A stretch of DNA of 64,000 nucleotides from Liolophura sinensis. Lineage: Eukaryota; Mollusca; Polyplacophora; Chitonida; Chitonidae. The notes beneath the pieces were generated by a model. The model did not search any database, was not told where the DNA came from, and worked only from the letters and a program-made list of their open reading frames with translations. How positions within the stretch are numbered: position 1 is the stretch's first letter; each line of letters starts with the position of its first letter. Shown piece by piece: positions 1,475 through 64,000 of the stretch. The stretch covers positions 36,649,501 through 36,713,500 of the forward strand of contig NC_088303.1 in assembly GCF_032854445.1 (NCBI RefSeq), written 5' to 3'. The translations under genes and the position numbers were made by a program.

Positions 1475-1600
1475 GTATTCTTACCTTTGTGAACATCTAC
1501 AGTGTTAGAGCTGCCACTCGCATCCAGGATATCTTCACCACAGCCAAGATTTTGGCCTTGATTATAATCATCATCACAGGCCTGGTTATGATTGGAAAAG
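1475..1600 (+). CDS. SLC7A5-like: Transporter exon a (TM5 region)
   Basis: Acceptor 'gttgtag' ends at 1474 and donor 'gtaagt' starts at 1601. The first two bases finish a codon begun in an upstream exon outside the window. It encodes [18 protein letters not shown] and the following hydrophobic stretch ([12 protein letters not shown]), and ends with one base of a Gly codon. Confidence 0.92.
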
Positions 1601-4600
1601 GTAAGTGACCAAATTGTTTTAACAGTCACAGGGTCCGGGAGTGGATTATGGTATTAATAACAGAGGTCAAGCTTTGAAATGATACGTGAATGTTTGATAG
1701 GTGTTTGACTTATGTCAGTAGGAGGGGCCTCCATGGCTCAGTTGGTTAGCGTGCTAGCGCAGCATGATGACCCAGGAGCCTCTCACCAATGCGGTCGCTG
1801 TGAGTTCAAGTCCATGTCATGCTGGCTTCCTCTCTGGCCGTAAGTGAGAAGGTCTGCCAGTAACCTGCGGATGGTTGTGGGTTCCCTCTGGGCTCTGCCC
1901 AGTTTCCACGCATCATAATGCTGGCCGCCGTCGTATAAGTGAAATATTCTTGAGTACGGCGTAAAACACCAATCATATAAGTAAATAAATAAATATGTTG
2001 GCAGCTTACTCAGTGCATTTAACCTATCCATAAACCTGACCTCCATTTTCAAAGTAAAAAATTCTTTAGCAGGGCTGCTTCGGGGGCTGTAGATCCTGGG
2101 TCAATCCTGGGTCAAGTCACACCTAAGAGGAAGTTTTAGCTTCCTCGCTTGGCATTCAGCATTAAGGGGAAGTGCAACGACTGTGTCAGTAAAATGGCTT
2201 GGGCGTGGCGGCTTACTTGCCTTCGGTTAGTCGTCTCAGTGAAGCCGCACTAAATAAAAGAGTAGTTGAAATTTGTGCTGCAACAAGGAGGAACATTATA
2301 TGCACTCTAAGAACTTGTTTGTTGTTATACAGTATGTCTAAAAAATTGTTAGGTACGACATTAAACCTCCAGCACTCACTCACTCACTCACTCTTTATCA
2401 GGGTATTAAACATCAGTCAGTCAGTCAGATGAATAAATACATAAACTGAGGTAGCTCACTATTTTTTGTGAGTTTGGAATTTGCCGAATATAAAAAATCA
2501 GATGAAGAGTATCACCTTCTTTATATTCTTGTGTTAGACAGAAATTTGTTGAAGAAAAATTTCATTTCTCTTCTTAAATAAAGATTTAATTCATTATTAT
2601 AGTCTGGAAATTGGGAACACTTGTGAATGTCATGATAAAACAGTTTGTACCTTTTGAATCACAGTCTTCATTCTTGGCACACAGTTTTACCATGATAGTG
2701 TAAGAATTAACTTTTGCATATTGCTGGTCTCCATGGATAAGAGTTGTGATTAAGACATGAATTATTTTAAGAATTAAAAGTAGGAAGGACTAATCATATT
2801 GAGAAATTAAATATTCTTTAGCAGAGTGCTTGAAAAATACACAAATAGTTACATTGACCTGTTATTGTTCATATGTTTTCTTCACTGATAGTTAATGTGG
2901 ACGTTGATAGAAATTGATGTTGCCTTGATTCATTGTCATTTTCATAACTATTTTCACAACTGTTCTTTCAGGAGAAATCGAGCACTTTGAGAATGCCTTT
3001 GAGGATCCTGTGAATGAATTATCGGTGGGGAGTGTGTCCATCTCACTTTATTCTGGACTGTTTGCATATGCTGGGTGGTAAGTACATGCATTTAGGATTT
3101 TCTGATGTTTCTGGACTGTTTGCATATACCGGGTGATAAGTGCATGTATTTAGGACTTGCTGGCATTTCTGGACTGTTTGCATATACCGGGTGGTAAGTG
3201 CATGTTTTTAGGACTTGTTGACATTTCTGGATTGTTTGCATATACCGGGTGGTAAGTGCATGTATTTAGGACTTGCTGGCATTTCTGGACTGTTTGCATA
3301 TACTGGGTGATAAGTGCATGTATTTAGGACTTGTTGACGTTTCTGGACTGTTTGCATATACCGGGTGGTAAGTGCATGTTTTTAGGACTTGTTGACATTT
3401 CTGGACTGTTTGCATATACCCGGTGGTAAGTGCATGTTTTTAGGACTTGCTCACATTTCTGAACTGTTTGCATATACATGTATTTAGGACTTGCTGACAC
3501 TCATTACAGTCTTCAAGCTTTGAACAGCCTGGAAATTGGAAGTAACTTTCCCAGGTCTTTGAAAGCCAGGACACATACAGTGTGTTAGTCTAGAAACAGA
3601 ATCAACCTGATTGACCTTCAAAACAGGGCCCTAGTCCTGTGTTTTATTGACAAGTGATATTTCTTTTCTGCTTGTCTTTGTAAGGATTTTAAAAACTGTG
3701 CAAATAGTAACCTTACATTCTCTTAAAGAAAGCTGTTTTTCAGGATGTTTGAATTTGTCTGAAGCAGTGCATTGTAACTAATAAAGTAATTTTACATGGC
3801 TTTAAGCAGGTATGACTGTAGAATAGTTATTCAGTCTACTGCAATTAGCCAAGAAAATGTGAATTTAGTGCCTGGAAATGGCGAAAAATTTGAAACTTGC
3901 ACATTGTGTATTGAACTCGTTCATAGTTGAGTGCGGAAAATGGTCTGAATTTTCATTTGAACTCGATTTGAATTGTATGATGCTGAATTTAGCCCTGAAA
4001 TTCAAAATTACAAGTCTGCTAGCAACCTGTGGGTGGTGGTGGGTTTCCCCCCGGGCTCTGCCCGGTTTCTACCCACCATAATGCTGGTCGCTGTCGTATA
4101 AGTGAAATATTCTTGAGTACGGCATAAAACACCAATCAAATAAATAAATAAATCAATCAAAATTACATTGTAAGCCCATCACGAACACGTAGAAAGGCCT
4201 GTTTTACTGGACATTGCAGTTCTAATATATTTGATACTGTCTCTCTTCCTGAATTGTGAATGTATGTTATCAGAGATAAATCTTCATAATATATCCATTT
4301 GTTTTGAATATTGGTTAATCAAAGGGAGATAATGCATTCATGTTTTAATTGTTACATTATTTTCACTTGCAGGAATTTCCTTAATTTTGTAACAGAGGAA
4401 ATGAAGGATCCATTTAAGTAAGTTCTGCAGGCACTTTTGCATTGATCAAAGTGTGCACGCTTTGTACAGTGTTTGTTAAAAAAGAAATTCTGAACAAGTT
4501 TGTAAAATTCTTGAGGATCATTTGTTTCTAGATAGACACAAAACTGATACTAAGTTCAAATTCTTGCCTAACCATTGTGCAAGTCTCAAGCTTGTTTAAA

Positions 4601-7600
4601 CTTTTGTGCACATTTTTCATGGCGTTTTTTTTCCTGGTTTTCTTTAGTATTGTAGCTTATGGCGTACCATGAGAGTCGGCATCCAATAAAGGAAAGAAAT
4701 GTTAAACACAATGTATTGTGGTATTTCACAAAGTACTGCATGAATTGAGCTCAGGGTTTGCACATATGTAGAGCACAATACCACGAGGGGGATATCCCAT
4801 CATTGATTTCGTGTTTACATATTAATAAAATACCATAAATTACTGCATTCCTGACATAGTATATTTTGTATTAAAATCAGTGTTAAACAAAATGTTAGGG
4901 GTGATATCTCAAAGAGTACTGCATTTATTGAACTTAAGGTTTGCGTGCAGGTAGAGCACAGTAACCCAAGGGAGATGTTCCATTGCTGATGCTCTGTGAG
5001 CAAATTAATTATTGAAGTTTTACATTTATGTCTTTCCTACAGGTGAGCTCTTTGGTAGCCTTGCTATCAAATCTAAGTTCTTAATGGTTTATGCTTTCAA
5101 AAAGAGAGACAAGTGTGGCTTGTTAATAAAGGAGAGATGATTCTGAAACTGTTTTTCTGTAACTCTTTTAGCAGAAACATGCATGTGTTTTTAACATGAG
5201 ATCATATTTTGAGGTCATGTGGGGATTAATAATCCCTTGTAATGATTATTCACAAATAAACATGAATGTCTGTAGTAAAATTTGCCTTTTTGTCATGTGG
5301 ATCAAGGGGGATAACTCCCCAATGATTCCATGCTCCATACTTTGTACTTGCAAAACTGGAGGTTGGGGAGACCATGAATGCATGATTATATATGTGTGTC
5401 AAATTTTCTGCTAATCTTGTTCAGAAACCTACCTCGTGCTATCTACATATCGGTACCACTGGTGACCCTTGTCTACGTCATGGCTAATGTGGCATACTTC
5501 TCTCTGGTGTCTCCTCGAGAGATGATGGAATCCAACGCAGTTGCTGTTGTAAGTCTGGCATTCTAACATGCCTGTTAACTACCGTCATACAACTTTATGT
5601 AAGGCATCACTTATAATGTTGATCTTAACTGGTTCTCTAGCTGCTATTCTGGTTGGTGTTGGAATAACTTCGATAACTTTATGATAAAAGTAACATTGAA
5701 GTTGTAGGTTCTGCTTACACTCTGTATTCATGTTCCACATTTTACTTACTAATTCTGATTGACTATCTTTTGTAGACTTTTGGTGATAAAGTATTTGGTG
5801 TTATGGCATGGATCATCCCAGTCTTTGTGGCACTCTCCACTTTTGGAGGCGTGAATGGTATGCTCTTCACATCTGGCAGGTAAGATTGATAATTCAGGTA
5901 AGGTCTGGGAACTTCGGACACTCTTGGACACTCTGAAATCTACCGAGCAGTGGAAAATTTAAACGTAGGTTTAAGCACCCTTTTTTTTTTTCATAATCAA
6001 CAACTTTTACTATGAACTGATGTTTGTACATATTAAGAAATTCAAGCCCAGAGCTGTTGTACATATTTGGACAGGGGCACTCTCTTGCTCTGGACAGCAG
6101 CAGAGAACTTCAGTTTTCATGATGTTTTTCCCAGTGATATAATATACAATCTATTCAAAGATACTTGAACATCAGAAGTTCCCTAAATTTACTCTACCCA
6201 AATCTTGCTTTCAAAACATTTGGTTGATAAAATCAGATCATAGAGCTTATGCTAAGAAAGGAAAAATGACATGCTTTACTTTTGGACAAAAGCTAGCACA
6301 TAAGTTCAGATTCTGAAATTACATATATGAAGATAATACAGTAATAATTTCATTTACCTTTTAAATGTGTATTCTTTTGATTTCAAATCATATAGCCTTT
6401 ATCTTTTTATTTCAGGCTATTTTATGTTGGTGCTAGAGAAGGTCATCTACCAGATTTCTTTGCCATGATTCAGAGGAAACGGTTCACGCCAATGCCAGCC
6501 ATATTGTTCACAGTACGTCGGGAATCATTTGTTATTTTGAGTGGCTTTTCAGTCATACTTTTTTTTTTTCTTCTTCTAAAGTTGTGTCTTTGTGTTTCTA
6601 GTGAATTAGGATATTGGTTTTGTTTGTAATAGGTCAGGCTCATTCATGACAGCTTTTCCTCGAGGGACAGAATATGTTTTGTCTCTATGATAAAATAATT
6701 GAGATGCATATTTGTGTGCTTTGCAGCTGAAAAATCAGGTCATTCCCTAAATGTTGCTACAGTGGCAACCTGTCAAATGCCCAGAATGAGGACCCCAACC
6801 TCATTATATTGACATCAAGCATTTGTTTCCCAGCTCATCTTTATGATATTTTTTACTAGAAATTAATACATTGTAACAGCGTAGAGGATTAAGAACTATA
6901 CCCTATTTCATTTTACCCATAAAACTGATTGCCATTATTCAGGCAAGTAACATCTGGCAATACTGACATGAAACTTTAATCAAACAAACCAGCGGATGGT
7001 CGTGGGCCCCCCTCCCCAGCCTCTATGCAGTTAATGCTGGGGCCGGTTTTATGAAGCATACTTAGTGTTAAGTAGCCCTTAGCTAAGTGCACTTAATATC
7101 TCTACAACATATGTTGTCATGATAGTTAGGGGCTTTCTTAGCTTAGTGAGCTTCAATGAAACTGGCCCCTGGCCATCGTCTAAATGAAATACACTTGAGT
7201 ATGGAATGAAACACTAAACAAACAAATAAATGAAATTGAATCAAACAGTTAGAGACTTTAAATAATCTATCAGTGGAATGCTGTTGCTGAATCCGTTTGT
7301 TACTAGGTGTTAGACCACTGATTTGTTTGTCACAAGGTGGGACTTTGTTTGTTAGACTGTGATATGTCTGAATGGTTTGTTACTGGGTGTTAGACCAATG
7401 ATTTGTTTGTCACAAGGTGTGACTTTGTTAGACTGTGATATGTCTGAATGGTTTGTTACTGGGTGTTAGACCACTGATTTCTTTGTCACAAGGTCTGACT
7501 TTTTTTGTTAGACTGTGATATGTCTGAATCCGTTTGTTACTAGGTGTTAGACCACTGATTTGTTTGTCACAAGGTGGGACTTTTTTTGTTAGACTGTGAT

Positions 7601-10600
7601 ATGTCTGAATTGTTTGTTACTGGGTGTTAGACCACTGATTTCTTTGTCACAAGGTGTGACTTTGTTAGACTGCGATATGTCTGAATTGTTCGTTACTAGG
7701 TGTTAGACCACAGATTTGTTTGTCACAAAATGTGACTTTGTTTGTTAGACTGTGATATGTCTGAATTGTTTGTTACTGGGTGTTAGACCACGGATTTGTT
7801 TGTCACAAAGTGTGACTTTGTTTGTTAGACTGTGATATGTCTGAATTGTTTGTTACTGGGTGTTAGACCACGGATTTGTTTGTCACAAAGTGTGACTTTG
7901 TTTGTTAGACTGTGATATGTCTGAATGGTTTGTTACTGGGTGTAAGACCACTGATTTGTTTGTCACAAAGTGTGACTTTGTTTGTTAGACTGTGATATGT
8001 CTGAATTGTTCGTTACTGGGTGTTAGTCCACGGATTTGTTTGTGACAAAGTGTGACTTTGTTTGTTAGACTGTGATATGTCTGAATTGTTCGTTACAGGG
8101 TGTTAGTCCACGGATTTGTTTGTCACAAGGTGTGAATTTGTATGTTAGACTGTGATATGTCTGAATTGTTCGTTACTGGGTGTTAGACCACTGATTTGTT
8201 TGTCTCAAAGTGTGACTTTGTTTGTTAGACTGTGATATGTCTGAATTGTTTGTTACACTCTGCGATATCTCTGGATAGTTTGTGACACAATGTGATATCT
8301 GTATTGTCTATTACAGGATGTGTAATTTGTTGTAGGGAGTGATTTTGTTCAATAATTTGTTATGGTCTGTTATATCACTGAATTGGTTGGTACAGGACAT
8401 GATATCTGAAATATTTGGTGTAAGTTGTGATATCTGAATTGTTGGTTGCTACAGGATGTGATATGTGAAATGTTTGATCTAAGTTGTGATATCTGAATTG
8501 TTTGTTTGGTACAGGGTGCGATATCTGAATTGTTTGTTACAGGGTGTGATATCTGAATTGTTTGTTACAGGGTGTGATATCTCTGCTTTACCTGATATCC
8601 AATGACATCTATGCTCTGATCAACTACATGAGCTTTGTTCAGTGGCTGTCAGTGGGCATGTCTATCCTGGGCATGATGATTCTTCGACACACGCGACCTA
8701 ACATCCCCAGGCCTATAAAGGTGAGTGAGCCTATGTTGCCAAGCAGACTTTTTACCAGAAACTACAGAAATGGTCTTAAGGTTGTAGTGAGAGTAGTTGC
8801 TGGAAAAGTTGTCAGAATCGTAATTAACAAAATGTGTCACTTGAAAAAGGCCCAATTTTAGGTGATACCATAGATAACAATAGATTGATACCAATCAATC
8901 TGACACTGCACATGAAATGACGACATGCTCAGAGCCTTGATACCAATCAGTCTGACACTGCATATGAAATGTACGACACGTTCAGTGCCTTGATACCAAT
9001 CAGTCTGACACTGCACATGAAATGTACGACATGCTCAGAGCCTTGATACCAATCAGTCTGACACTGCACATGAAATGTACGACACGCTCAGTGCCTTGAT
9101 ACCAATCAGTCTGACACTGCACATGAAATGTACGACACGCTCAGTGCCTTGATACCAATCAGTCTGACACTGCACATGAAATGTACGACACGCTCGGTGC
9201 CTTGATACCAATCAGTCTGACACTGCACATGAAATGTACGACACGCTCGGTGCCTTGATACCAATCAGTCTGACACTGCACATGAAATGTACGACACGCT
9301 CGGTGCCTTGATACCAATCAGTCTGACACTGCACATGAAATGGACGACACGCTCGGTGCCTTGATACCAATCAGTCTGACACTGCACATGAAATGTACGA
9401 CACGCTCGGTGCCTTGATACCAATCAGTCTGACACTGCACATGAAATGACAACATGCTCAGTGCCTTGATACCAATCAGTCTGACACTGCACATGAAATG
9501 TACGACATGCTCAGAGCCTTGATACCAATCAGTCTGACACTGCACATGAAATGTACGACACGCTCAGTGCCTTGATACCAATCAGTCTGACACGCCACAT
9601 GAAATGTACGACACGCTCAGTGCCTTGATACCAATCAGTCTGACACTGCACATGAAATGTACGACACGCTCAGTGCCTTGATACCAATCAGTCTGACACT
9701 GCACATGAAATGTACGACACGCTCTGTACCTTGATACCAATCAGTCTGACACTGCACATGAAATGTACGACACGCTCAGTGCCTTGATACCAATCAGTCT
9801 GACACGCCACAGGAAATGTACGACACGCTCAGTGCCTTGATACCAATCAGTCTGACACGCCACATGAAATGTACGACATGCTCAGAGGCTTGAAACCAAT
9901 CAGTCTGACATTGCAGATGAAATATGCAATTATTCAAAATGTTTCCAACATTAGTGTAATCTGAATATTGAAGTAAATTTAAGGAAATTTTTGTCAGGAA
10001 TATACCAGTAACAAGAAACTATTTATTAGATATTCATCATTCACCTACTATGCTGAAATATTCAGGCCAGAGGTTGTCTAATAATACTTAAAGTCTTTTT
10101 TGATGACCTTAAATTTGGAACAAAATTTGTGTGGATAAATAAATATCACAGAATATTACTTTTGGTTCTGAACCCTACATATTTCTACTACGACATCATC
10201 ATATGTTGCAGGAAAACCTCAATACATCTTTTTAAGATCATTACAACTCAGACAAAATGTCGAACTTAATAGGGGCAAAATTTTAGGCCTCCACTAAAGA
10301 GATTTGACCTTTCTATTCTATGCAACACATTATTAGCACGAACAAGGGTGGAGACAAAGAAATTTTCTTAGATCTCGGTGACCTAGGCTTATTTTTACGT
10401 TTCTACAAAATTTACCATAAATCAAGAGCCTCCTGTACTTGCATTGTGATGAGTATGGACATGTGTCACCTCTTTTCTTTCTTGTCTACATGTATGACGT
10501 GTGTATCCTCCTTGTCCACATGTATGACGTGTGTATCCTCCTCGTCCACATGTATGACGTGTGTATCCTCCTCGCACACATGTATGACGTGTGTATCCTC

Positions 10601-12265: not shown

Positions 12266-12801
12266 TCCATGGCACGAAATGATGGAGGGAGTGACAGGTG
12301 TGGGCAGATTGAGGCGTGGAAAATGGGAAATCTGCTTTACCCGTCACTGCTGTAGTCAACAGTCCTTCTAGTACAGCTGTTATGGAACAGAGAACAAAAC
12401 TTCTTGCTATCAGTGACCATTGGTCAGTAGCTATCCAGTTAATTTTTTAGGCATTTGTTTTTATGTCTGCATGCATTTTTAACATTGTTATATAATACTT
12501 GACTATTAACCCTCAGAAAGTGACCGATATGCTTAAGCCTTCGGACTGTTCAAGTGGAAATTCTAAACCATAAGGATTTGTTTTGTTTTTTTGTTTTCCA
12601 AACATTTAAAGTTTCAAGATTTCTTTCTTATCAAATTCCATTATGACATTGTTCAAATCTAGACTCATTGTTTATCTCAATTATGTTGATTTGCTTTCAT
12701 TATTCTTTTTTGTATGTAACTGTCAGTGAGGATTTATGTTTTTTTTTGGTCTATTTTTTTAACAAAAATATTGGTCACTTTAAATGGATATACAGTGCTC
12801 A

Positions 12802-12807
12802 AATAAA
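12802..12807 (+). terminator. Candidate polyadenylation signal AATAAA of the transporter gene
   Basis: The first AATAAA after the stop codon, 537 bases downstream. It is followed within about 25-35 bases by a GT-rich stretch ('ggtattgtgtggcc'). Later AATAAA hexamers (for example near 17089 and 18221) are alternatives. Confidence 0.5.
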
Positions 12808-13135
12808 ACCAGTGCTTCAAGACCTGGTATTGTGTGGCCATGTCTAGTTTTACCATCTGGAAGTGCAGTTCCTAAATCTGGCTACATGTTTAAGGGACAG
12901 AACCTCTAGAAGTGCAGTGCTGAGTATAATGTATTGAAAAACACAAAAAAAACCCAATCAACTGACCACGTTATTTATTGCATTCAACAGAATTTATTCT
13001 TCATTAAGCTGTACATGATATGGCGATCTTGTTTTTACTGTAGTTTATTCATTGGTTTGTTTTCCAGTTGGGAATCCGGTATAAATTTATTTGACAGTTT
13101 GCCATTGCACTTGTCATGCTAAGCAGTCTATGAGT

Positions 13136-13138
<3 letters not shown>

Positions 13139-13181
<43 letters not shown>

Positions 13182-13198
13182 TGGGTTTGTATATATAC

Positions 13199-13254
<56 letters not shown>
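13139..13254. repeat. (TA)n microsatellite
   Basis: Two long TA runs separated by a short unique segment ('gtattgggtttg'). Confidence 0.95.
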
Positions 13255-13255
<1 letters not shown>

Positions 13256-13258
<3 letters not shown>

Positions 13259-17199: not shown

Positions 17200-17200
<1 letters not shown>

Positions 17201-20669: not shown

Positions 20670-20937
20670 CTATGTTACATACATAGGCATATATATTTTA
20701 GCATTTTGATGATTGTTTATTTCTTTAGAAGTGACTTTGACTTTAACACTCCCGATGCGTCTCAGGTACTGTACAATGAATGGAGTTGACGTCAGTGTGA
20801 TGGCTATTCTAGCTGGGGCAAAGACTTTATGTACAGCATAGGCCATCACAAATGTGCTGGCACCTTTAGCCACCTGGGACCCTATAAAGGATTCACCTAC
20901 GCCTAGTTTTCCCAAGAGGGCAGCCACATCAATGCCG
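20670..20937 (-). CDS. FAM210B: FAM210B-like exon 2: rest of DUF1279 and C-terminus
   Basis: The acceptor is a long T tract plus 'cag'. The exon completes a split Ser codon and reads GIDVAALLGKLGVGESFIGS, with TPFIVQYLRRIG near the domain end, then a short basic tail ending in TAG at 20670-20672. Confidence 0.92.
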
Positions 20938-38244: not shown

Positions 38245-38287
<43 letters not shown>

Positions 38288-50200: not shown

Positions 50201-53200
50201 TACAAAATTATAAGAGAACTTAGCACCATGTAAATGCTTACTTGCCAGTTACCAGCAGATGATCACTGAAACTGTGTTTAAAGCAAGAACTTACAATTAC
50301 AGGGCTCGAAATCTCCATATGTCTGTTATGCTTATTGATAGCATGATTTTTGCCGACGAAAGGCAAAAAAAAATAATCTTACCTTTCGCTGCCGACACCT
50401 GAGCATATTTGCATACTGCTAATCATAAAACATGCGCTTTATTTTGATATATAGCCAGTCAGTGTTGTGCGAACTACACTGTGTGTCAACAACACAGACA
50501 AATACTGTCTAACTCCCGATATGCCAGACTCGCACACAGTGCTACCGTAAAGGGGTCAAAGTTAATCATGGTAGTTTTCGGGAACTGTGTTTAATGTCCG
50601 GGGGGGGGGGGGGGGTACCAATTTCAAAAAGCGGGAAAGCTAACTCTTCTGCAATAGGGCAGTTCCAATTGTAACGAAATGTGCGTGTAGACTGACATAC
50701 TAAAGTGGAATTACATAAACACGGGAAGCTGACATCAGATATTTCTCAGTGGAATTAGTTTTTAGCTGAAACACATTTGTACGCATATTTTTTGTGTATT
50801 GAGGTCTCTTAGCGGACAACCGTTCACCAGATGTGAGGTGACTTCCACATAGGCCTAACCTGAATAATCAGTTCATCTGTAGTGTACATTGTGCATTTTG
50901 GACATTGGAATTTAAAGGTTGTAATACACTTCACCTGTCTTGACACTTTCTTCGATTTCATTTATGGGTACATTTAGAGATGTACATGTAGGCTTACTAG
51001 TCAGGAAACCTGCACACCTCGTTGTCAGTGACTTGATCCCACCTGGCTAGGATTAACAGATAGTGCTGCCAAGTGCCGTGCAGGGTAATGAATCGGGCCA
51101 GGGGCTAATAACTCTCCTCTGTCATCTTGCTACCAGCTCAGATCGTGCTTAACTCACTGTCGAAACTTTGGGTCATTTACCGTAGTTCTACTGATTCTAA
51201 TATGTTCTTTGTGAATATCATTCACCACATATACTTTATAGCCCAGTCAGTAGTGTGAGGGTAGAATGACACCCAAAATCCTACAATTGTCAGCAGGCTG
51301 AAAAGCACATTTACATAAAAAATTCTTGAATGAGGCATTAAACACCAATCAATACATGTAAATAAATAAATTATCCAGTGTCAGTCAAAAACCCTTTTTT
51401 TTACCTTGTGGCTAACAGCAGGTAAGGTTACAGCAGGCTGATGCAACGTCTGGGCCACCCTTGTCCCTACTGCCTGACCCTGCCCCCCAGCCTGGCCAGG
51501 AGACCACCCCTGAGGAGGATACGACCAGCCAGACTAATGAGAACCTGACTCATGAAGACTCGGCTAATGTCAGTCTGGGCTCCACGGCAGCACCTGATAC
51601 CGACCGCATTCACGTCTGCTTGGTAAGCAAGAAAGTATAGATTTGTGTTGATGTTTGTTGATTGTGAGTGAAAATGAGTGTTTTGGTGGCGTACATGGCA
51701 TTTTTAAATAGATTTTTGAACTAGGGCTGAATTTAGCCCTGTCCTAGGTGTCCTGGCATCTTGGATCCACTCAAAATGCATGCTAGCCAAAACACCCACT
51801 ATACCAAAACACTCACTAAATAAGGGCACATTAGTGACACTGTACTTAGTTAATTTTATCTTAATGAAGCTCTTTAACATACATGTAATATGATGTTTTA
51901 ATTAGATAAAGCTGAGCACTTGTGTTTGACCATATGGTGTCTGAAACAACAGGAGATAAACATGGGAGCTAAGCTGATGACACGGAGGTGATTGTTTGAG
52001 ATACCTGCTTTGAAGATAAAGAAAATATGATTAATTTAATGAAATTCAGTTCTCTTTTTTACATACCAAAGGTTGTATTTTATATATTTTATTTTTATTA
52101 AATACAGTAAAATTATTACAGTGCAGTGTACTGAGAGATGAAGTCAATGGTGCTTTAATTTTAGATCCCCAATCATCAGTTTAGTTCAAATTAATTAAAT
52201 GTTGAGGTCTATTTTCTTCAATTTCTGATATTTACTTGCCTCATGTAAAGCAAGAGGTTTTGCTCTACATGGTGGTGGGTTTCCCCTGGGCTCTGCCTGG
52301 TTTCCTCCCACCATAATGCTGGCCGCCGTTGTATAAGTGAAATATTGTTGAGTGCGGCGTAAAACACCAATCAAATAAAGAAATAAATCAGGAGCGTATG
52401 ATTTTCTGACATTAAAACAAGCCCATTTATAAGTTTGCCATTTATTACGTACGATGTATAAATGAATCTATACAAATAATAATAAACCGAAGCGTGGTAG
52501 CCATGTCAGCATTTTTCGGTGCTAATTAAGTATGAAGCAATATTAAAATTGATGGGTTTGCATGCCTGTAGAATTTATCACCAGAAAGACATCCAGTTTC
52601 AGTCTCTGCCCTGTACACAGTCGGCATGAAAATCCTCGAACTTCGTGCAGAATATCTAGAGTAACTCATAATGACATCACAGCGTCATTCGTTCCCAAAT
52701 TATGTTCCCAGTCTGTGCAAGTCTAAAAACTACATTGTATTATATATGCTTGCCGCAGACATGCTTTATCAGAAAAGTCAAAAAAAAAGCATGCTTAAAA
52801 CACCAGTAGGATATTTGGCTAGGATCTGGCTGTGCTTGATAGCACACTGGTATGAGGAGGACTAATTACTGTAAAATGAACAATTCATGGCTTCAATACA
52901 TCGCTTCGATACTGGAGCTGAAGTTTAGCATTCATGTGTCTCCTACAAATGACCTGTTTGTGGCTTTGATGCCAAATATAGGTTTTGTTTTTACTTTCTT
53001 ACAATCTCCTTTGATGCATCACTGTATGAGTTTTAGCATTGTTCTGGCCTTTAGTATTTACTTTGGAGGTTAGCATGTTTGGAACTCTGCAGTCCAGGTG
53101 GATTCATTCATTTAAATGTAATCTTATTGAGTGTATAATTAGCATCATTTAAGGATAAAGAAAATGGCTCAAATAATGTATTTCATCATAATTTTGACCT

Positions 53201-55029
53201 GATTATTTACAGATGTGTCAGAAGGCCTTTAAGCGAGCCAGTCACCTGAAGGAGCACCTAATTACCCATGTGCCTGCTGCCACACTGCGCCGTGTCCGTG
53301 CTACCCCTCATGTGTGCACCACATGTAACAAGTCCTTCCAGAAGCCCAGCCAGCTGGAGAGACATCTCCGTATTCACACAGGTGCTCATTTCACTGTCTG
53401 TTATTTTGTTCCTTCAACCGTAACAGAATATTATTAGTCATATGGTGACTCAACAACAGAATGCGAAAATGTATGGGTCACTGACCCCATATATGTTCAT
53501 ATCTGTCACTGATTAACCATGTAACAAATTTATCCAGCAGAAAACCGATCCATTCAGCACTGAAGGGCTGATGTGTCAATGAATTGCACCAGCGACATCA
53601 AAGCCTGTTCCCACAGCCTGTTCCCCCCTCTCAAAAGTTAACGGAGGCATATGACATCGGCTGCAGGATATGGAATTACACTTATCCTCCCCATGTTGCT
53701 GTACACGAAAACGCTGAGAATTTTATCGGATGCAGGATAATCAGGATTACTGTTTCCCTTGTTCTCTAGCCATTGGTGGAAGTCCAGCAGCTCAAGGCCG
53801 ATGTCTAGGCCATTTTACAAAATGGCCTGTAATGTGCATAAAACTTGCCTAATAACTTAGTAGTAAGATAAACCTGACCAACACACATTGTTCACATTGG
53901 CGGTTGACATGGTAACTGAGATTATCTTAGATTTTCCTAGATTTTGTATTTTTAAGAAATGTATGCAAGATGGTGCAAATTAGCCTATCAGAAATACATC
54001 CACTGGGAAGAGAACTGCTGTGAGCACCTTTTTGCATTTTTAAAATTTAATTAAGTTAGAAATTTTAGAAAATTTTTAAAACAGTGGTTGTCACCTGGTG
54101 ATATAAAACAAAATATTCTTGAATGCAACAAGGAACAGTTGGTAATATCTTATCGCTCCAAGTCATTCCAAGGACTCTTTCTGGGGTAAATGATCTAAGT
54201 TACCTTGGCAGAGATCTCAACCACATTTCCCCACAGGATTGGCAATGGCAACCTGTAGTAGTTTCTCTATGATCTTGTATATTTCTACCCTTAAATTTTA
54301 TTGATTTATTTATTTATTTGATTGGTGTTTTACGCCGTACTCAAGAGTATTTCACTTATACGACAGCGGCCAGCATTATGGTGGGAGGAAACTGGGCGGA
54401 GCCTGAGAGAAACCCACGAGTATCCGCAGATTGCTGGCAGACCTTCCCACGCTACTATTAAATAAGTAAACAAGTAATAAAGAGTGATAGTCTTTCTTTT
54501 AGAAATGTGATTCAGTTTCCAACAAAGAGCTCATTATGTCAAGCATCTTAAAATTATACAGAAAATAAAAATGCTTACAGAAGAAAGTAATGTTCACAAA
54601 CAACAATGTGGGGTACAAACTTTCTTGATTTTGTTCATTGCAGGAGAAAGACCTTTTGTGTGTGAAATCTGCCAGCGAGCCTTTAATCAGAAAAATGCGC
54701 TGATAATTCACCTGAAGAAGCACAGCGGTGACAAGCCACACAAGTGTTCCTACTGTGAGCTGGCCTTCACTCAGAAAGGTAACCTGAAAACACACATCAA
54801 GAGGGCTCATCATGTTGACATGGTGCTGTCAATGAACCTTCCTTCCAGTTCTGTGGGTAGTGTGCCTCAGCCTGCTACCACTATCAGCGTCATCTCTGAC
54901 AGCGGGCAGGACGGCACCGTGGAGGGGGTAGAGGTGGAGGAAGAAACGGTCCTGGAGACGAATGCCTCTGATGACACCACCCCCCAGGACGAGGCCTTAG
55001 ACCTGGAGATCACAGAATTATTTCAGTAG
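26710..55029 (+). CDS. ZNF236: ZNF236 orthologue, 29-finger C2H2 zinc-finger protein (gene span)
   Basis: 25 coding exons (listed separately), 5526 bases, predicted 1841 residues, very near the length I recall for human ZNF236 (about 1845). Every intron is GT-AG, phases agree and the sum is a multiple of three. There are 29 C2H2 fingers: 1-5 near the N-terminus, 6-8 and 9, then four four-finger blocks (10-13, 14-17, 18-21, 22-25), and 26-29 at the end. Recognition words such as [25 protein letters not shown] and KKSSHLKQH, and the linkers ([32 protein letters not shown]), match vertebrate ZNF236 in order. A basic PKKRRTSPR suggests nuclear import. ZNF236 is a probable nuclear DNA-binding regulator; its targets are poorly known. 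Long Gln-rich linkers look like activation domains. Confidence 0.96.
26762..28319 (+). other. ZNF236 intron 1
   Basis: 1.56 kb, no coding exon seen. The last part of a family-2 SINE lies at about 27690-27790. Confidence 0.75.
27690..27790 (+). mobile_element. 3' fragment of family-2 SINE
   Basis: It ends with the family-2 tail 'gacgttaaaccccaagcact' followed by a 'cactcgctcactcg' run; the tRNA head is absent. Confidence 0.65.
28320..28750 (+). CDS. ZNF236: ZNF236 exon 2: N-terminal acidic region
   Basis: Acceptor 'ctatttcag', donor 'gtgagc'. It encodes [16 protein letters not shown] and a long finger-free segment rich in Thr, Val, Ala and acidic residues, with repeated VT/VLVxHxA wording ([23 protein letters not shown]). 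Possibly a protein-interaction or activation region. It is markedly richer in G+C than its flanks. Confidence 0.88.
29118..29250. repeat. Dispersed repeat R-A copy
   Basis: It shares 'ggtatctca', 'aagtactacatg' and 'cccttgctaccaagtctaagt' with the R-A copies near 4719-5090. Confidence 0.5.
29605..29904 (+). CDS. ZNF236: ZNF236 exon 3: fingers 1-3 and half of finger 4
   Basis: Acceptor 'tttcag', donor 'gtaggt'. Fingers: [25 protein letters not shown]...[33 protein letters not shown]; and [11 protein letters not shown], which continues in the next exon. Phase 0 at both ends. Confidence 0.95.
30175..30425 (-). mobile_element. Near full-length SINE, family 1, reverse orientation
   Basis: Reads in reverse from 'gattggtgttttacgccgca' through 'gtgggaggaaactgggcaga' and 'tttgaactcacagcg' (reverse B-box) to 'ggccacataggcccgcct' at the 5' head. 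Confidence 0.82.
30703..31015 (+). mobile_element. tRNA-derived SINE related to family 2
   Basis: The head has an A-box-like 'tagtctagtggttagagtgt' and B-box 'gggatcaaaccc'. The body has 'ggttggcccaatgtcagtaa', and the tail 'attgttaagttcgacgt' then 'catacatacataa'. A 5'-truncated relative is at 38765-39006. It ends just upstream of ZNF236 exon 4. Confidence 0.75.
31041..31177 (+). CDS. ZNF236: ZNF236 exon 4: second half of finger 4, finger 5
   Basis: Acceptor 'gttgtag'; donor 'gtaaaa' is weaker than consensus. It encodes [10 protein letters not shown] (end of finger 4) and [20 protein letters not shown], and ends with two bases of a Lys codon. Confidence 0.92.
31268..31311 (+). mobile_element. 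SINE tail fragment, family 1
   Basis: A short piece, 'ctcttgaatgtggccttaaa' plus 'caacaatcaaataaataaa', matching the family-1 3' end. Confidence 0.5.
31428..31555 (+). CDS. ZNF236: ZNF236 exon 5: linker and finger 6
   Basis: Acceptor 'gtttgcag', donor 'gtaagt'. It encodes [20 protein letters not shown] and finger 6 with [12 protein letters not shown], ending in phase 1 within the TG-EKP-type linker. Confidence 0.95.
31556..33609 (+). other. ZNF236 intron, 2.05 kb
   Basis: No exon recognised. It contains one dispersed repeat (about 33243-33405) with a diverged relative at 715-900. Otherwise unremarkable AT-rich DNA. Confidence 0.7.
33243..33405. repeat. Dispersed repeat R-B copy
   Basis: Shares 'atttacatgat', 'attccattttg', 'tttagtg' and 'ctgtaaaac' in the same order and spacing with the segment near 715-900. 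Confidence 0.5.
33610..33767 (+). CDS. ZNF236: ZNF236 exon 6: fingers 7 and 8
   Basis: Acceptor 'gatttacag', donor 'gtatgt'. Fingers [20 protein letters not shown] and [19 protein letters not shown]. Finger 8 is finished by the next exon (RVH). The linker TGERP is present. Confidence 0.95.
34129..34698 (-). pseudogene. Possible decayed coding fragment of unknown type
   Basis: On the minus strand, reading can be followed through about 190 codons with changes of frame near 34447 and 34360 (segments such as [38 protein letters not shown] and [20 protein letters not shown]). The composition looks protein-like, and the breaks suggest a pseudogene or transposon remnant. No family was recognised, so function cannot be named. 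Confidence 0.3.
35908..35982 (+). repeat. 44-bp direct duplication upstream of an acceptor
   Basis: 'tgcaaatacaggttaataca' followed by 'ctattgtcact' occurs twice, at about 35908 and 35952. Both lie just before the ZNF236 acceptor at 36016-36017. Confidence 0.85.
36018..36143 (+). CDS. ZNF236: ZNF236 exon 7: finger 9
   Basis: Acceptor 'gtcgccag', donor 'gtaaga'. It starts with RVH (end of finger 8) and encodes [20 protein letters not shown] followed by MH. The extra Cys and the S-x-L-N-x-H-I-S wording match vertebrate ZNF236 at the same place. Confidence 0.93.
36405..36473 (+). CDS. ZNF236: ZNF236 exon 8: short linker exon
   Basis: A 69-bp segment between acceptor 'cgttcatag' and donor 'gtatgg', open and phase 0 at both ends. 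It encodes [20 protein letters not shown] and TSM. It fits the linker between finger 9 and the DVIEQLL motif, but lacks independent motifs, so it may be skipped or optional. Confidence 0.65.
36594..36627 (+). mobile_element. Family-1 SINE tail, interrupted
   Basis: 'aaaattcttgagtacagtgt' with remains of the family-1 tail; the continuation (AAATAAAT) lies after 36994. A family-2 SINE is inserted between. Confidence 0.6.
36628..36982 (+). mobile_element. Full-length tRNA-derived SINE, family 2, with 12-bp target duplication
   Basis: The head 'ccccgatagcacagttggta' holds an A-box and 'agggtcaatcctgggtcgag' a B-box. The body has 'cttacttgccttcggttagg' and 'caacaaggagggacat', and the tail 'gacgttaaaccccaagcacc' plus an (ACTC)n end. 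The flanking duplication 'cacaagaatcaa' is at 36616-36627 and 36983-36994. Confidence 0.9.
37048..37212 (+). CDS. ZNF236: ZNF236 exon 9: linker with DVIEQLL motif
   Basis: Acceptor 'tccccag', donor 'gtcagt'. It encodes [14 protein letters not shown], which parallels the vertebrate DVIQQLLELS motif, plus an acidic stretch. Phase 0 at both ends. Confidence 0.9.
37517..37543. repeat. (CA)n microsatellite
   Basis: About 13 CA units inside a ZNF236 intron. Confidence 0.95.
37720..37902 (+). CDS. ZNF236: ZNF236 exon 10: linker with [11 protein letters not shown] motif
   Basis: Acceptor 'ttgttctag'. It encodes [14 protein letters not shown], matching vertebrate ZNF236, then a Ser/Thr/Ala-rich stretch. 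The end at 37902 (CAG, donor 'gtgcac') keeps phase 0 with the next exon. A second plausible donor at 37952 ('gtaatg') would extend the open frame by 49 bases but break the frame downstream. Confidence 0.8.
38247..38284. repeat. (TA)n microsatellite
   Basis: A run of about 18 TA units in a ZNF236 intron. Confidence 0.95.
38452..38710 (+). CDS. ZNF236: ZNF236 exon 11: fingers 10-12 (block A)
   Basis: Acceptor 'cttatag', donor 'gtcagt'. It encodes [20 protein letters not shown] onward: fingers with [25 protein letters not shown] and [12 protein letters not shown]. The linker HEKPYKC has His in place of the usual Gly (THEKP), as in vertebrate ZNF236. Confidence 0.95.
38765..39006 (+). mobile_element. 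5'-truncated SINE, relative of the 30703 copy
   Basis: Shares 'gagcaaggaaacaggactgg', 'ttggcccagtgtcgttataa', 'catgatactttagt' and the tail 'gaaaaattgttt' with 'aaaccccaagcata'. Confidence 0.65.
39475..39672 (+). CDS. ZNF236: ZNF236 exon 12: finger 13 and basic linker
   Basis: Acceptor 'tttctcag', donor 'gtgagg'. Finger 13 is [20 protein letters not shown] followed by H; then a basic stretch ([10 protein letters not shown]) and the conserved motif [14 protein letters not shown], present also in vertebrate ZNF236. Confidence 0.95.
40055..40150. repeat. Dispersed repeat R-A copy
   Basis: It has 'ggtacctcagaaagtactgc', 'atgtattgaact', 'tagagtacaataacatgg' and 'tccatcgctga', matching the R-A copies at 4719 and 55305. 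Confidence 0.55.
40190..40422 (+). mobile_element. SINE, family 1, with internal deletion
   Basis: The 5' head is complete ('tggctcagtcagttatcg', 'gagttcaagtcc'). The segment containing 'ccataatgctggccg' and 'gtataagtgaaatattc' is missing, so 'cggtttccac' joins directly to 'ttgagtgcggcgtaaaac'. Confidence 0.8.
40604..40750 (+). CDS. ZNF236: ZNF236 exon 13: finger 14 (start of block B)
   Basis: Acceptor 'ggttag', donor 'gtacag'. It encodes [19 protein letters not shown], then finger 14 [20 protein letters not shown] followed by H, and ends in phase 1 after TG. Confidence 0.95.
41201..41455 (+). repeat. About 21-bp tandem repeat ending about 20 bp before a ZNF236 acceptor
   Basis: The unit 'actgatgtgaactaccctat' plus 't' is repeated with length variants; some carry 'gaccctattattgacc'. 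The last diverged unit abuts the polypyrimidine tract of the acceptor at 41474-41475. Confidence 0.88.
41476..41725 (+). CDS. ZNF236: ZNF236 exon 14: fingers 15-17 (block B)
   Basis: Acceptor 'gtttcag', donor 'gtgagt'. Fingers with [26 protein letters not shown] and [13 protein letters not shown], linked by TGMKAYKC and SEVRPFMC. Ends in phase 2. Confidence 0.95.
42385..42610 (+). CDS. ZNF236: ZNF236 exon 15: acidic and Thr/Gln-rich linker
   Basis: Acceptor 'cctgtag', donor 'gtacat'. It starts [11 protein letters not shown], close to the vertebrate RYELAQQLQ, followed by an acidic stretch and [13 protein letters not shown]. Probable activation or interaction region. Confidence 0.9.
43174..43374 (+). 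CDS. ZNF236: ZNF236 exon 16: Gln/Asn-rich repeat linker
   Basis: Acceptor 'tttag', donor 'gtaaga'; 201 bp. It encodes about seven degenerate copies of a six-residue unit of the form Q-Q-N/S-L-x-Q (for example QQNLDQ, QQSLTQ, QQNLGQ), then [12 protein letters not shown]. Low-complexity and prion-like in composition. Confidence 0.9.
43608..43741 (+). CDS. ZNF236: ZNF236 exon 17: Ser/Asn/Gln-rich linker
   Basis: Acceptor 'tttcag', donor 'gtaagc'. It encodes [20 protein letters not shown], then [19 protein letters not shown] and two bases of an Arg codon. Confidence 0.88.
44323..44661 (+). mobile_element. 5'-truncated SINE, family 2
   Basis: Runs from 'gcttcgggagcggtagatcc' through 'cttacttgccttcggtaagt' and 'caacaaggaggcacat' to 'gacgttaaaccccaagcact' and a 'cactcattcactcac' end. 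It ends about 80 bp before the exon-18 acceptor. Confidence 0.82.
44741..44886 (+). CDS. ZNF236: ZNF236 exon 18: finger 18 (start of block B')
   Basis: Acceptor 'gtttgacag', donor 'gtcagt'. It encodes [18 protein letters not shown] and finger 18 [20 protein letters not shown] followed by H. The recognition word and the phase-1 end equal those of exon 13. Confidence 0.95.
44887..46132 (+). other. ZNF236 intron, 1.25 kb
   Basis: No exon seen. It contains a reverse partial family-1 SINE (45600-45702). Confidence 0.7.
45600..45702 (-). mobile_element. Partial SINE, family 1, reverse orientation
   Basis: Reverse tail 'ttgttttcgccatactcaag' followed by 'cagtggccagcattgggatg' and 'ggaggaaacc'; diverged. 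Confidence 0.65.
46133..46390 (+). CDS. ZNF236: ZNF236 exon 19: fingers 19-21 (block B')
   Basis: Acceptor 'gtgttacag', donor 'gtgagt'. Fingers with [26 protein letters not shown] and [13 protein letters not shown], a one-to-one match to fingers 15-17. Ends in phase 1. Confidence 0.95.
47113..47297 (+). CDS. ZNF236: ZNF236 exon 20: linker between blocks B' and A'
   Basis: Acceptor 'ccaatag', donor 'gtaaca'. It encodes an acidic start, [16 protein letters not shown], and [20 protein letters not shown], paralleling the vertebrate segment with VSEKVLVQSAAEKDRISE. Confidence 0.93.
47752..47953 (+). CDS. ZNF236: ZNF236 exon 21: fingers 22-23 (block A')
   Basis: Acceptor 'ccttcag', donor 'gtcagt'. 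Finger 22 has [13 protein letters not shown] and finger 23 [12 protein letters not shown], the same recognition words as fingers 10 and 11. Ends in phase 1. Confidence 0.95.
48012..48110 (+). repeat. 32-bp tandem repeat, three copies, near the exon-21 donor
   Basis: The unit 'ctgctgaaacttctgcatgc' plus 'ccgggggttccc' is found three times, starting about 60 bp after the donor at 47954. Confidence 0.9.
48524..49338 (+). CDS. ZNF236: ZNF236 exon 22: fingers 24-25 and long Gln-rich region
   Basis: 815 bp, the largest exon. Acceptor 'tttgtag', donor 'gtatgc'. Fingers 24 ([13 protein letters not shown]) and 25 ([13 protein letters not shown]), then a basic PKKRRTSPR that may be a nuclear localisation signal, then a Gln/Leu/Asn-rich region ([49 protein letters not shown]). 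The region corresponds to the vertebrate LEGIQLQLAANL segment. Confidence 0.95.
49339..51421 (+). other. ZNF236 intron, 2.1 kb
   Basis: No exon recognised. It contains a G homopolymer (50598-50615) and a family-1 SINE tail (51312-51372). Confidence 0.7.
51312..51372 (+). mobile_element. SINE tail fragment, family 1
   Basis: 'aaaattcttgaatgaggcat' followed by 'taaacaccaatcaatac' and an AAATAAAT end. Confidence 0.6.
51422..51622 (+). CDS. ZNF236: ZNF236 exon 23: linker and first residues of finger 26
   Basis: 201 bp, phase 0 at both ends, donor 'gtaagc'. It encodes [19 protein letters not shown], a Pro/Thr/Glu-rich stretch, and RIHVCL, whose Cys begins finger 26. The acceptor reads 'cag' directly followed by 'gtaagg', so exon start and a donor-like sequence coincide. 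Confidence 0.88.
51623..53212 (+). other. ZNF236 intron, 1.6 kb
   Basis: No exon recognised; one 5'-truncated family-1 SINE at 52264-52391. Confidence 0.7.
52264..52391 (+). mobile_element. 5'-truncated SINE, family 1
   Basis: 'ggtgggtttcccctgggctc', 'ccataatgctggccgccg', 'gtataagtgaaatattgttg', 'aaaacaccaatcaaat'. Confidence 0.82.
53213..53381 (+). CDS. ZNF236: ZNF236 exon 24: fingers 26 (rest) and 27
   Basis: Acceptor 'atttacag', donor 'gtgctc'. It continues finger 26 ([19 protein letters not shown]) and encodes finger 27 [20 protein letters not shown] followed by H. Finger 27 repeats the word of finger 6. Ends in phase 1. Confidence 0.95.
54300..54452 (-). mobile_element. Partial SINE, family 1, reverse orientation
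   Basis: Reverse tail 'gattggtgttttacgccgta', 'cttatacgacagcggccagc', 'gtgggaggaaactgggcgga', ending near 'cagaccttcccacg'. Confidence 0.82.
54644..55029 (+). CDS. ZNF236: ZNF236 exon 25: fingers 28-29, acidic C-terminus, stop
   Basis: Acceptor 'cattgcag'. Finger 28 ([13 protein letters not shown]) and finger 29 ([14 protein letters not shown]) mirror fingers 7 and 8. An acidic tail follows ([18 protein letters not shown], then [10 protein letters not shown]), ending in TAG at 55027-55029. The acidic amphipathic end resembles a transactivation segment. Confidence 0.95.
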
Positions 55030-61271: not shown

Positions 61272-64000
61272 CTATTTATCTTGCTGTTCCTCGGTCAATT
61301 CTTTGCCAGCCAGTTCCTGAGCCATCTCGTAGTACTTGGTGAACTTGGCAGTATGGTCCAGCGGCAAGTAAATGTAAGGACTCATGTGAAACGCCGTGCT
61401 GATGCCGTACTTCTTCACTGTGGACAGGTGGCACCTGCTCAAGTGATAACGATAAGAACCTTTGGTGGCAAAGTGGCGGTTACAGGCTGGGCACTTGTAC
61501 TCCATGAATTCTCCGTCACTGTTTCCAGATGGACTGTCCTCGCTTTTCGGATCGGCCTCAAGCTGGTGCGATGATGATGGACAGTGCTCCTCACTCTTGA
61601 CAGCCTGACATTTGACAGTCAGATTTAGAGGTAAGTCATCCCCATCGGAGCTACAGCCTCCCCCTGAAGGCTCGGGAGTACTAGCAGGGTGTTTGTACGA
61701 GCCTCGGCCCCCAGCCAGTGAGTCAAGGGGCGTGTCTGCCTTCGAAATAAGCCTCTGCAGGCTGTCTAATGGATGTTCACTGGTCAAAGGCTGCCCATAC
61801 ACAAAAGAACTAAGAGAGTCTAAAGCAGATCCCTTAGACTTTTTCCCGTTTTCTGACGAAGTTTCATCAAAAAAGTTCAAGTATTTACAAACAACAGATT
61901 CTCGTTTGACAGGAGTTTCCTCTGAACTACTGCTAACTTTGACTTCTGGAGATCTAGTTTCCATGTTGATATCATCAGTCTTATGTACACCATTTGTCTG
62001 GTTTCCTGCAGCAGGTTTGCTATCATCTGACAGTTTGGGTTTCTCTCTTTGGTTCACCCCTACATGACCAATGTCCTTCTTGAGACCCTGACTGCTAGGA
62101 TATGCCTTGTACATGTCCCTCTGATAGAACCAGCCATACAGGGGCTGTCGCAGCATGTCTATGGGACATAATTTTTTAGGGGTTTTATCACTTTTGGACT
62201 CGAAACTTTTCTGGATGAGATTTTCCATGGCCTTCAAAGCGTTTATCGCTGGTGCTATTGAATCTGAACTGTCAGGGTCGATGATGTCTAACGGTTTGGA
62301 CAGATTACCACATTCCTTGTTTTTCTCGCCCCCATGGTTGTCATGGAGGCTGTGACCAGATTTCTGCAAACCACGGCCATGATTATCTCTCAGTGGTAGC
62401 TTAATTTCTGTCAGTTTCTTCAAATGACTTACAGATTCCTGCATGGAGTTGCTAGAATATTCCAGAATCATCTGTTCTATGGCCGATGGTGACCTTTCCT
62501 CATATGATTTGGATTTGGACTCCTTTATACTGGACTCATCATCAGAGTCTTTTTCATCTTCCACCTTGACATTTGTGGGGAGGTTTAGCTCCTGTGCTGT
62601 GGGTTCAGCCGGATCTGTGGATGATTTCTTATCAGGTGTTGAACTGTAACACCGATCTGGACTCGGGGACTGTGACAAATCAGATACAAACCCATTTACC
62701 ATTATTCTAGGACATATCAATCCCTCAGAGCTCCCGGGGCTCTGTGATCTTGAACTACTTCCAGCAGGAGGAGGAGGCGATGACCTAATTCCAGCAAGAG
62801 GAGGTGACCCTGACCTAAATCCACCAGAAGGAGGTGACACTGACCTACGATCCTGGTCTAAAGAGGAAGAGTCCACAGTGTCCACAGCCTGGATGACAGG
62901 TGGATGATATGTGGTGTCCTCAGAAAGTTTACACTCTCCATTCCTTTCCTCCCGGGGAGAATTAATGCCAGGGTCTGGAGAACACCGAGGATCACTCCCG
63001 TGGGAGGACTGGCTCTCGCGACAATGCGAGAGCAAGGGCTTGGGGGACAGTTCCAGATTAGGGGATTTAGAAAGTTTATCTCTGGAGACAGCTTCCATGA
63101 CATGCTTGCTGGAGACAGGGAATCTGCTTGAACACACGTAGTCACTCCTGACAGAATTGCATGGGGAACTTGGTGCTGACTGACATTTCACTTTTGAATT
63201 ATTTTCAGCTGAAAGGTTGGGACTAGCTGTCACATGATTTGAAGACAGGGCTTTGGTGTTGGTTTTGTGAGAATGTGTAACTTCTCCATTTGATGAGGAG
63301 TTCAAGCAATGTGAAGAATTAAGCTTTCTCTGACTGATGTGTCTGTCCCCAGCAACGTACAACCTCATTCTTTCTGAATCTTTTTGCTTCAGGCCCCACT
63401 TGGCCTTTTTTAGTAAAAGAGAATCATTTCCTCTTGCCTTTCCGTCATCCTCACAAGGGGAAGGCAACTCTGAAAGTCTCAAATGATGAATTTCTTCTAC
63501 CCTTTTTCTTAAACAGTATCTGATATGTTCCACAAACATTTCCATTTCAATCTTATTTCCACAATTTTCACATGCTATCTTTTTGTCACTTGGGTGAACA
63601 GTTCTCAGTACTTTGTTAGCTGGTGATCTTGCCCTAGAACTGTCTCTGTGAAGGTCACCAGCACACAGTGATGGCATTAACAACGTTCGTTTACTTTCCA
63701 AATGAGCAGCTTTGTTCAGTACCACAGACGAGTCATCCAGAAGACGTTTGCGGTATTGTTTGTTCACACTGGCCTCTGTTAAACTGTCGCCACATGAACG
63801 CACACTCTGTTTTCTATGGTGACCCGATATGACCATGTGATTTGCTAAGGCCTCCATGTCGGAGAAAACCTTGTGACATATCTTGCACTTAAAGACACAA
63901 TCACTGTCCGTTGATTCCCTCTCGCAATAAGCTGAACACTTGTGGGCTCGGCGTCCGTGTTCTGTGCTCACGATTTTCGTGTAATGCTGCGTCTCCATCA
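61272..64000 (-). CDS. tsh: Teashirt/tiptop-type zinc-finger transcription factor, 3' exon (cut by window edge)
   Basis: A single open exon, at least 909 codons, running off the window; stop TAG at 61274-61272. Numbering from the Met at 63998, which is internal: residues 1-6 (METQHY) are the second half of a teashirt finger, whose Cys pair lies beyond the edge. A complete finger is at 36-60 (C38-X2-C41-X12-H54-X5-H60, the long teashirt spacing). IACENCGNKIEMEMFVEHIR and Cys162 form a CCHC motif typical of fly Tsh and Tio. Further on are QESVSHLKKLTEIKLPL, NALKAMENLIQKSF and PIDMLRQPLYGWFYQRDMY, then a CtBP-like PLNLT at 790 and a C-terminal C2H2 finger at 834-857. No homeodomain is seen, unlike vertebrate TSHZ. 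Family knowledge: Tsh proteins are nuclear repressors that pattern trunk and appendages. It converges with ZNF236. Confidence 0.85.
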   Translation of the reverse strand, partial: METQHYTKIVSTEHGRRAHKCSAYCERESTDSDCVFKCKICHKVFSDMEALANHMVISGHHRKQSVRSCGDSLTEASVNKQYRKRLLDDSSVVLNKAAHLESKRTLLMPSLCAGDLHRDSSRARSPANKVLRTVHPSDKKIACENCGNKIEMEMFVEHIRYCLRKRVEEIHHLRLSELPSPCEDDGKARGNDSLLLKKAKWGLKQKDSERMRLYVAGDRHISQRKLNSSHCLNSSSNGEVTHSHKTNTKALSSNHVTASPNLSAENNSKVKCQSAPSSPCNSVRSDYVCSSRFPVSSKHVMEAVSRDKLSKSPNLELSPKPLLSHCRESQSSHGSDPRCSPDPGINSPREERNGECKLSEDTTYHPPVIQAVDTVDSSSLDQDRRSVSPPSGGFRSGSPPLAGIRSSPPPPAGSSSRSQSPGSSEGLICPRIMVNGFVSDLSQSPSPDRCYSSTPDKKSSTDPAEPTAQELNLPTNVKVEDEKDSDDESSIKESKSKSYEERSPSAIEQMILEYSSNSMQESVSHLKKLTEIKLPLRDNHGRGLQKSGHSLHDNHGGEKNKECGNLSKPLDIIDPDSSDSIAPAINALKAMENLIQKSFESKSDKTPKKLCPIDMLRQPLYGWFYQRDMYKAYPSSQGLKKDIGHVGVNQREKPKLSDDSKPAAGNQTNGVHKTDDINMETRSPEVKVSSSSEETPVKRESVVCKYLNFFDETSSENGKKSKGSALDSLSSFVYGQPLTSEHPLDSLQRLISKADTPLDSLAGGRGSYKHPASTPEPSGGGCSSDGDDLPLNLTVKCQAVKSEEHCPSSSHQLEADPKSEDSPSGNSDGEFMEYKCPACNRHFATKGSYRYHLSRCHLSTVKKYGISTAFHMSPYIYLPLDHTAKFTKYYEMAQELAGKELTEEQQDK

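Follow-up and report, generated by a model that had tools for sequence, protein, structure and literature searches.

The stretch of DNA analysed here, referred to below as the window, comprises 64,000 nucleotides of chromosome C9 of the chiton Liolophura sinensis (C9:36649501-36713500) and carries, in sequential order, a LAT-type SLC7 transporter gene, FAM210B, a long ZNF236-like C2H2 gene and teashirt (tsh/TSHZ). This order had been proposed in a sequence-only reading of the window, which suggested that the four genes may be an ancestral bilaterian block; through splicing, Pfam, a finger scan and genome search all four have been recovered, in the same order. SLC7 and FAM210B are arranged tail to tail with 8.4 kb between them, FAM210B and the C2H2 gene head to head (the first finger being 4.2 kb away from the FAM210B frame), and the C2H2 gene and tsh again tail to tail, i.e. 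convergently, 6.2 kb apart. Between the four genes, inspection by eye of the frames of at least 90 amino acids (aa) in the whole window, and of at least 40 aa on the plus strand of positions 1-16500, revealed no other conserved gene; a small gene could escape such inspection. Flanks of 40 kb on each side of the window were examined as well. C9 has a length of 37,343,639 bases, which is 6.1% of the searched genome (609,464,459 bases), and the comparison is that of one chiton genome, as the only invertebrate, with human. The species was published as Liolophura japonica, with an assembly of 632 scaffolds and 609.5 Mb (609,495,693 bases) (PMC11068029), and was renamed Liolophura sinensis by a correction (PMC12441733).

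The SLC7 gene consists of 12 exons with GT-AG borders, gives a spliced open frame of 497 aa and spans window coordinates -30702 to 12265 on the plus strand. Nine exons, coding exons 4-12, are located inside the window at 1475..12265 (1475-1600, 2972-3077, 4373-4417, 5425-5548, 5776-5879, 6416-6512, 8571-8720, 11261-11438 and 12192-12265). The gene had been placed at 1475, where it is indeed present; this position is the fourth coding exon, exons 1-3 lying to the left of the window and the first of them starting 30.7 kb outside it. The window gene matches PF13520 in Pfam (E 1.2e-67), and its scores against the best PDB chain of each relative are 592 bits for LAT1, 586 for LAT2, 541 for y+LAT2, 529.5 for y+LAT1, 497 for Asc-1, 476 for xCT and 458 for b0,+AT. 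It belongs to the LAT1/LAT2 class.

A search of the chiton genome with this gene listed 56 exon matches, and 13 paralogous stretches were taken for comparison. Three LAT-type copies have been identified: the window gene (C9 36.6 Mb), a copy at C9 13.1 Mb that ranks LAT2 first, and a copy at C13 8.4 Mb that ranks LAT1 first; the latter two are 65-66% identical to the window gene over the conserved first part. A gene at C5 11.78 Mb scores 146.5 bits with b0,+AT vs 115 bits with LAT1. The first tree had 11 rows, six of them partial, with two of eight inner branches starred; it omitted six of the 13 stretches, and one further stretch is part of the C13 gene. In this tree human b0,+AT groups with the chiton genes at C5 11.78 Mb and on C6 (100/98), human LAT1 groups with LAT2 at 92/93, and the branching of the window gene and the C9 13.1 Mb and C13 copies is not resolved. 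The second tree, built from the first part only, had 17 rows including the six stretches omitted before, and four of its 14 inner branches were starred. In it the b0,+AT clade persists at 97/97 and gains another gene from C5, four C5 genes are placed at a far remove (100/100), and the C9 19.06 Mb gene has a long branch and no placement; LAT1 and LAT2 are not grouped, nor is the branching of LAT1, LAT2 and the three LAT-type chiton copies resolved. Orthology of the window gene to SLC7A9 (b0,+AT) is not supported, given 458 vs 592 bits and the separate human-chiton b0,+AT clade. SLC7A10 (Asc-1) reaches 497 bits vs 586-592 for LAT2 and LAT1, Asc-1 and y+LAT being absent from both trees.

Three intron minisatellites of the SLC7 gene are built from its splice junctions. 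The one at window 3051-3477 repeats, in 7.4 copies of 58 bp, the final part of exon 5 together with the GTAAGT donor (the exact donor pattern kept in five); that at 8378-8582, with 7.1 copies of 28 bp matching at 74%, repeats the acceptor and the beginning of exon 10 (the pattern kept in three); and that at 11422-11704, with 12.9 copies of 22 bp, repeats the final part of exon 11 and its donor (12 GTAAG sites).

The FAM210B-like gene is located at 20670..25452 on the minus strand, and its PF06916 domain is split over two exons, found in both the N-terminal frame (24136-25452) and the second exon frame (20670-20963). Four exon matches in the chiton genome define two FAM210 loci, both on C9. In comparison with the human proteins, the window gene is 60% identical to FAM210B and 30% to FAM210A, and the other locus (C9 12.39 Mb) 55% to A and 27% to B. 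Judged by these identities, the window gene is of the B type and not of the A type, and FAM210A was dropped as a comparison gene for it. The FAM210A-like gene and RNMT stand head to head at C9:12386779-12400349, with 5.7 kb between the coding matches, as human FAM210A and RNMT presumably do at 18p11.21; they are apparently a conserved bilaterian pair. Since the chiton possesses an A-like gene beside RNMT and a separate B-like gene, the A/B split of FAM210 seems older than the bilaterian ancestor. No relative of FAM210B was found in the bacterial/archaeal or viral contigs scanned, and the FAM210 search of the PDB returned nothing useful.

The N-terminal part of FAM210B (24136-25452, minus strand) contains a tandem cysteine motif (CPQGIQG..C...), and PF25443, an ANG-1-like model, falls just below the cut-off there (28.2 vs 28.5 bits). 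A second LAT-type SLC7 gene (C9:13104324-13131538) and the FAM210A-like gene (C9:12386779-12389560) lie 0.7 Mb apart, an echo of the SLC7-FAM210B pair of the window.

The long C2H2 gene extends over 28304..55026 on the plus strand, with fingers from 29617 and a first frame (28304-28810) added by eye. The finger scan gave 29 pattern matches in 27.0-56.5 kb; two of them are off-frame and were set aside, so that 27 fingers remain, distributed over 15 separate stretches at about 29.6-55.0 kb. Of these stretches three were scanned with Pfam, and C2H2 models are present in all three. The gene resembles ZNF236 in its finger number and sequence pattern and is taken as its putative counterpart; ZNF236 itself is absent from the 35 PDB sequences with E of 1e-20 or lower and from the Pfam names that appeared.

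The C-terminal part of tsh is located at 61272..64000 on the minus strand, and its frame (61272-63998) stays open past the right edge to window coordinate 65345. The identification follows a single genome match, the PLDLS motif and teashirt-spaced fingers, three C2H2 fingers being found by pattern, two of them with a five-residue histidine spacing that is presumably typical of teashirt. The finger that crosses the right border of the window shares 51% identity with human TSHZ3 over 39 columns (PDB 2dmi; E 2.7e-10 against that one sequence); for the window part against the whole PDB, TSHZ3 is the top match at only E 0.038. A 908-aa query with seven candidates scored matched one tsh locus in the chiton genome and found no second one, and a search with an N-terminal motif did not find the first exon. 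No Pfam homeobox model was found in the two parts scanned, of 908 and 448 aa. The homeobox is present in vertebrate TSHZ and missing from the Drosophila orthologue (PMC2211742). Invertebrate teashirt members may be without it.

Human neighbours of the TSHZ, FAM210, ZNF236 or SLC7 genes are located on C9 more often than chance: four of eight markers lie there, vs 6.1% expected (binomial 0.0008). They are (i) SALL at 35.25 Mb, where three double fingers have 67-78% identity with a SALL motif; (ii) NFAT at 27.85 Mb (34-39% identity, NFAT5 type by eye); (iii) RNMT at 12.40 Mb, a genome match; and (iv) PDCD5 at 5.20 Mb, one partial match. The SALL locus carries nine fingers in one frame, and the next genome place reaches 54% identity to the motif among the matches listed. 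In the PDB the motif scored 86 bits with SALL3 and up to 75 with SALL4 in single-stretch matches, multi-finger proteins such as ZNF568 exceeding these when many stretches are added up. The distance between SALL and the four genes is 1.37 Mb, and a random genome place would fall so near with a chance of 0.0045.

On the human side, TSHZ1 and ZNF236 are presumably in tandem, separated by about 1.5 Mb and two genes, while the chiton pair is tail to tail. The human genes of the LAT1/LAT2 class we take to lie at 14q11 and 16q22-24, near SALL2/NFATC4 and NFATC3. SLC7A7/A8, NFATC4 and SALL2 are presumably located at 14q11-12, and SLC7A6 beside NFATC3 at 16q22. TSHZ1 is located at 18q22.3, TSHZ2 at 20q13.2 and TSHZ3 at 19q12 (PMC2211742). 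A single 10.44-Mb deletion of 18q22.2-q23 includes TSHZ1, ZNF516, ZNF236, SALL3, NFATC1 and TXNL4A (PMC9484224), and the 18q23 critical region holds four genes, ZNF516, ZNF236, MBP and GALR1 (PMC2180198). The shared deletion bears out the claim that human TSHZ1 and ZNF236 are near neighbours.

The four genes are probably a surviving segment of a chromosome that the bilaterian ancestor already possessed, and what they share with human is then mainly chromosome-scale synteny. We infer both the ancestral linkage and a vertebrate duplication of the chromosome carrying the block. The ancestral chromosome would have borne the four genes together with spalt (SALL), NFAT, FAM210A-RNMT and PDCD5; vertebrates would have quadrupled it and lost copies unevenly, so that a different subset was kept at each TSHZ region. 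The human members of the LAT-type SLC7 group would be found in sister copies of the same region set, rather than beside TSHZ3. Whole-chromosome conservation explains most of the pattern with no need of ancestral adjacency. Only the pair tsh-ZNF236, the sole link that is close on both sides, with differing orientation, is a reasonable candidate for tight linkage of ancient date; the two genes may have kept their proximity from the bilaterian ancestor onwards, for example through tsh enhancers in or beyond the neighbour. The SALL-NFATC paralogon of human 18q23, 20q13, 16q and 14q is similar in carrying TSHZ1/TSHZ2, ZNF236, FAM210B and LAT-type SLC7 genes, whereas TSHZ3 at 19q12 fits less neatly among the four. 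In the chordate/bilaterian linkage groups (Simakov et al. 2020, PMC7269912) genes likewise remain on the same chromosome in molluscs and vertebrates, the latter with four copies of it; in contrast to them, C9 is represented here by eight markers, half of them off C9, which assign it to no named group.

A number of points weigh against a chromosome-scale origin. The eight markers were hand-chosen by us; six were named before their searches, NFAT and MRPL52 later. For those named beforehand the count on C9 is weaker, three of six (binomial 0.004), and it is three of seven (0.007) when either NFAT or RNMT is left out. RNMT neighbours FAM210A and not any gene of the window block, and for SALL, given its location on C9, the chance of lying within 1.37 Mb of the block is 0.054. 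The other four of the eight markers are off C9: CSTF1 on C5, TXNL4 on C6 and C7, POP4 on C10 and, by a weak match (E 3.6e-4), MRPL52 on C12; human CSTF1 is presumably located beside FAM210B. Against the four-gene block in particular, human FAM210B and TSHZ2 are presumably about 3 Mb apart, with about seven genes between, and FAM210B and SLC7A9/A10 about 7-9 genes from the TSHZ genes, beyond the limit of the microsynteny definition considered below. The proposed link of TSHZ2 to FAM210B is a comparison of orthologues, the gene being of the B type, and loses force by this distance of megabases in human. The proximity of SLC7A9 to TSHZ3 (presumably about 1.5-2 Mb for SLC7A9/A10) had also been offered as evidence for the block; since the window gene falls in the LAT1/LAT2 class and the SLC7A9-type genes found sit on C5 and C6, this argument fails. 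TXNL4A counts against the chromosome-scale reading and the block alike: it shares the 18q deletion with TSHZ1 (PMC9484224), while its chiton counterparts are on C6 and C7. Chicken-mammal synteny is broken between GALR1 and SALL3, the latter being preceded by a gene-free 2 Mb (PMC2180198). The heavy rearrangement of chiton genomes (PMC12005716) also weighs against the chromosome-scale reading.

Compatible with the chromosome-scale reading, as with the other readings, is the possibility that SLC7 is a mollusc-specific duplicate which landed by FAM210B, the old unit being FAM210B-ZNF236-tsh. This falls somewhat short of an even chance: the three LAT-type copies, whose branching beside human LAT1/LAT2 neither tree settles, would agree with it, but two of the three are on C9, and the other two copies share just 65-66% identity with the window gene along the conserved first part, so the duplication was not recent.

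A true microsyntenic block, with SLC7(LAT), FAM210B, ZNF236 and tsh adjacent in the bilaterian ancestor, held by tsh regulatory elements and thinned after the vertebrate duplication, is unlikely. It would agree with the contiguity of the four genes in the chiton, with TSHZ1 and ZNF236 lying together on human 18q, and with the pair FAM210A-RNMT, presumably present in human and intact in the chiton, from which pairs of old date appear able to remain close in this genome. This pair resembles C2H2-tsh in joining unrelated neighbours on the same chromosome, apparently close since the bilaterian ancestor; it is divergent over 5.7 kb, possibly with a shared promoter, whereas C2H2-tsh is convergent over 6.2 kb. 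However, of the three human links just one is presumably close, the SLC7 comparison was made with the wrong class, tsh-ZNF236 is tail to tail in the chiton vs presumably tandem in human, and the evidence comes from a single invertebrate. Chiton genomes are unusually and strongly rearranged (PMC12005716), so adjacency in one chiton species is weak evidence. Microsyntenic blocks have been defined by at least three orthologues no more than five genes apart in the species compared (PMC8851819). The four chiton genes show this spacing, and are similar to such blocks in that several unrelated genes are adjacent. Unlike in such blocks, in human presumably just TSHZ1-ZNF236 fits it. Support for the proposed four-gene block is partial and comes from the C9 linkage, the B-type FAM210 and the proximity of TSHZ1 to ZNF236; the SLC7A9 leg, the markers off C9 and the distant human FAM210B speak against it.

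It is equally doubtful that tsh, ZNF236 and FAM210B, perhaps with the LAT-type transporter, form a bilaterian-wide regulatory block in which bystanders contain or separate the enhancers of tsh, as part of a wider SALL-NFAT-TSHZ region that has remained on a single chromosome ever since the bilaterian ancestor. No statement on this gene block, or on the gene order around tsh/ZNF236, was found in print, subscription papers and supplements being outside the search. Were tsh-ZNF236(-FAM210B) ancestral, it would point to the same bystander genes across animals for teashirt developmental enhancers, and would bear on human 18q deletions that lose TSHZ1 and ZNF236 together. As it stands, the locus is a further piece of conserved animal chromosome, of use chiefly for the testable gene-order prediction that it offers.

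Very unlikely, finally, is an adjacency created by chiton or mollusc rearrangements, the human links being coincidence, since the heavy chiton rearrangement (PMC12005716) and the four markers off C9 that favour it are set against the four on C9, the distance to SALL (chance 0.0045 genome-wide) and the linkage of TSHZ1, ZNF236 and SALL3 in human (PMC9484224).

Repeats and transposon traces are also present in the region. A dispersed repeat occurs at window 1871-1990, 4034-4153, 21073-21192 and 52269-52388, with an inverted copy at 54299-54450 and many places in the 40-kb flanks; it occurs in both orientations, and one frame reads a 24-residue peptide or a close variant. In the right flank, a stretch at window coordinate 103403-103690 (minus strand) resembles, by eye, a Tc1/mariner-type transposase.

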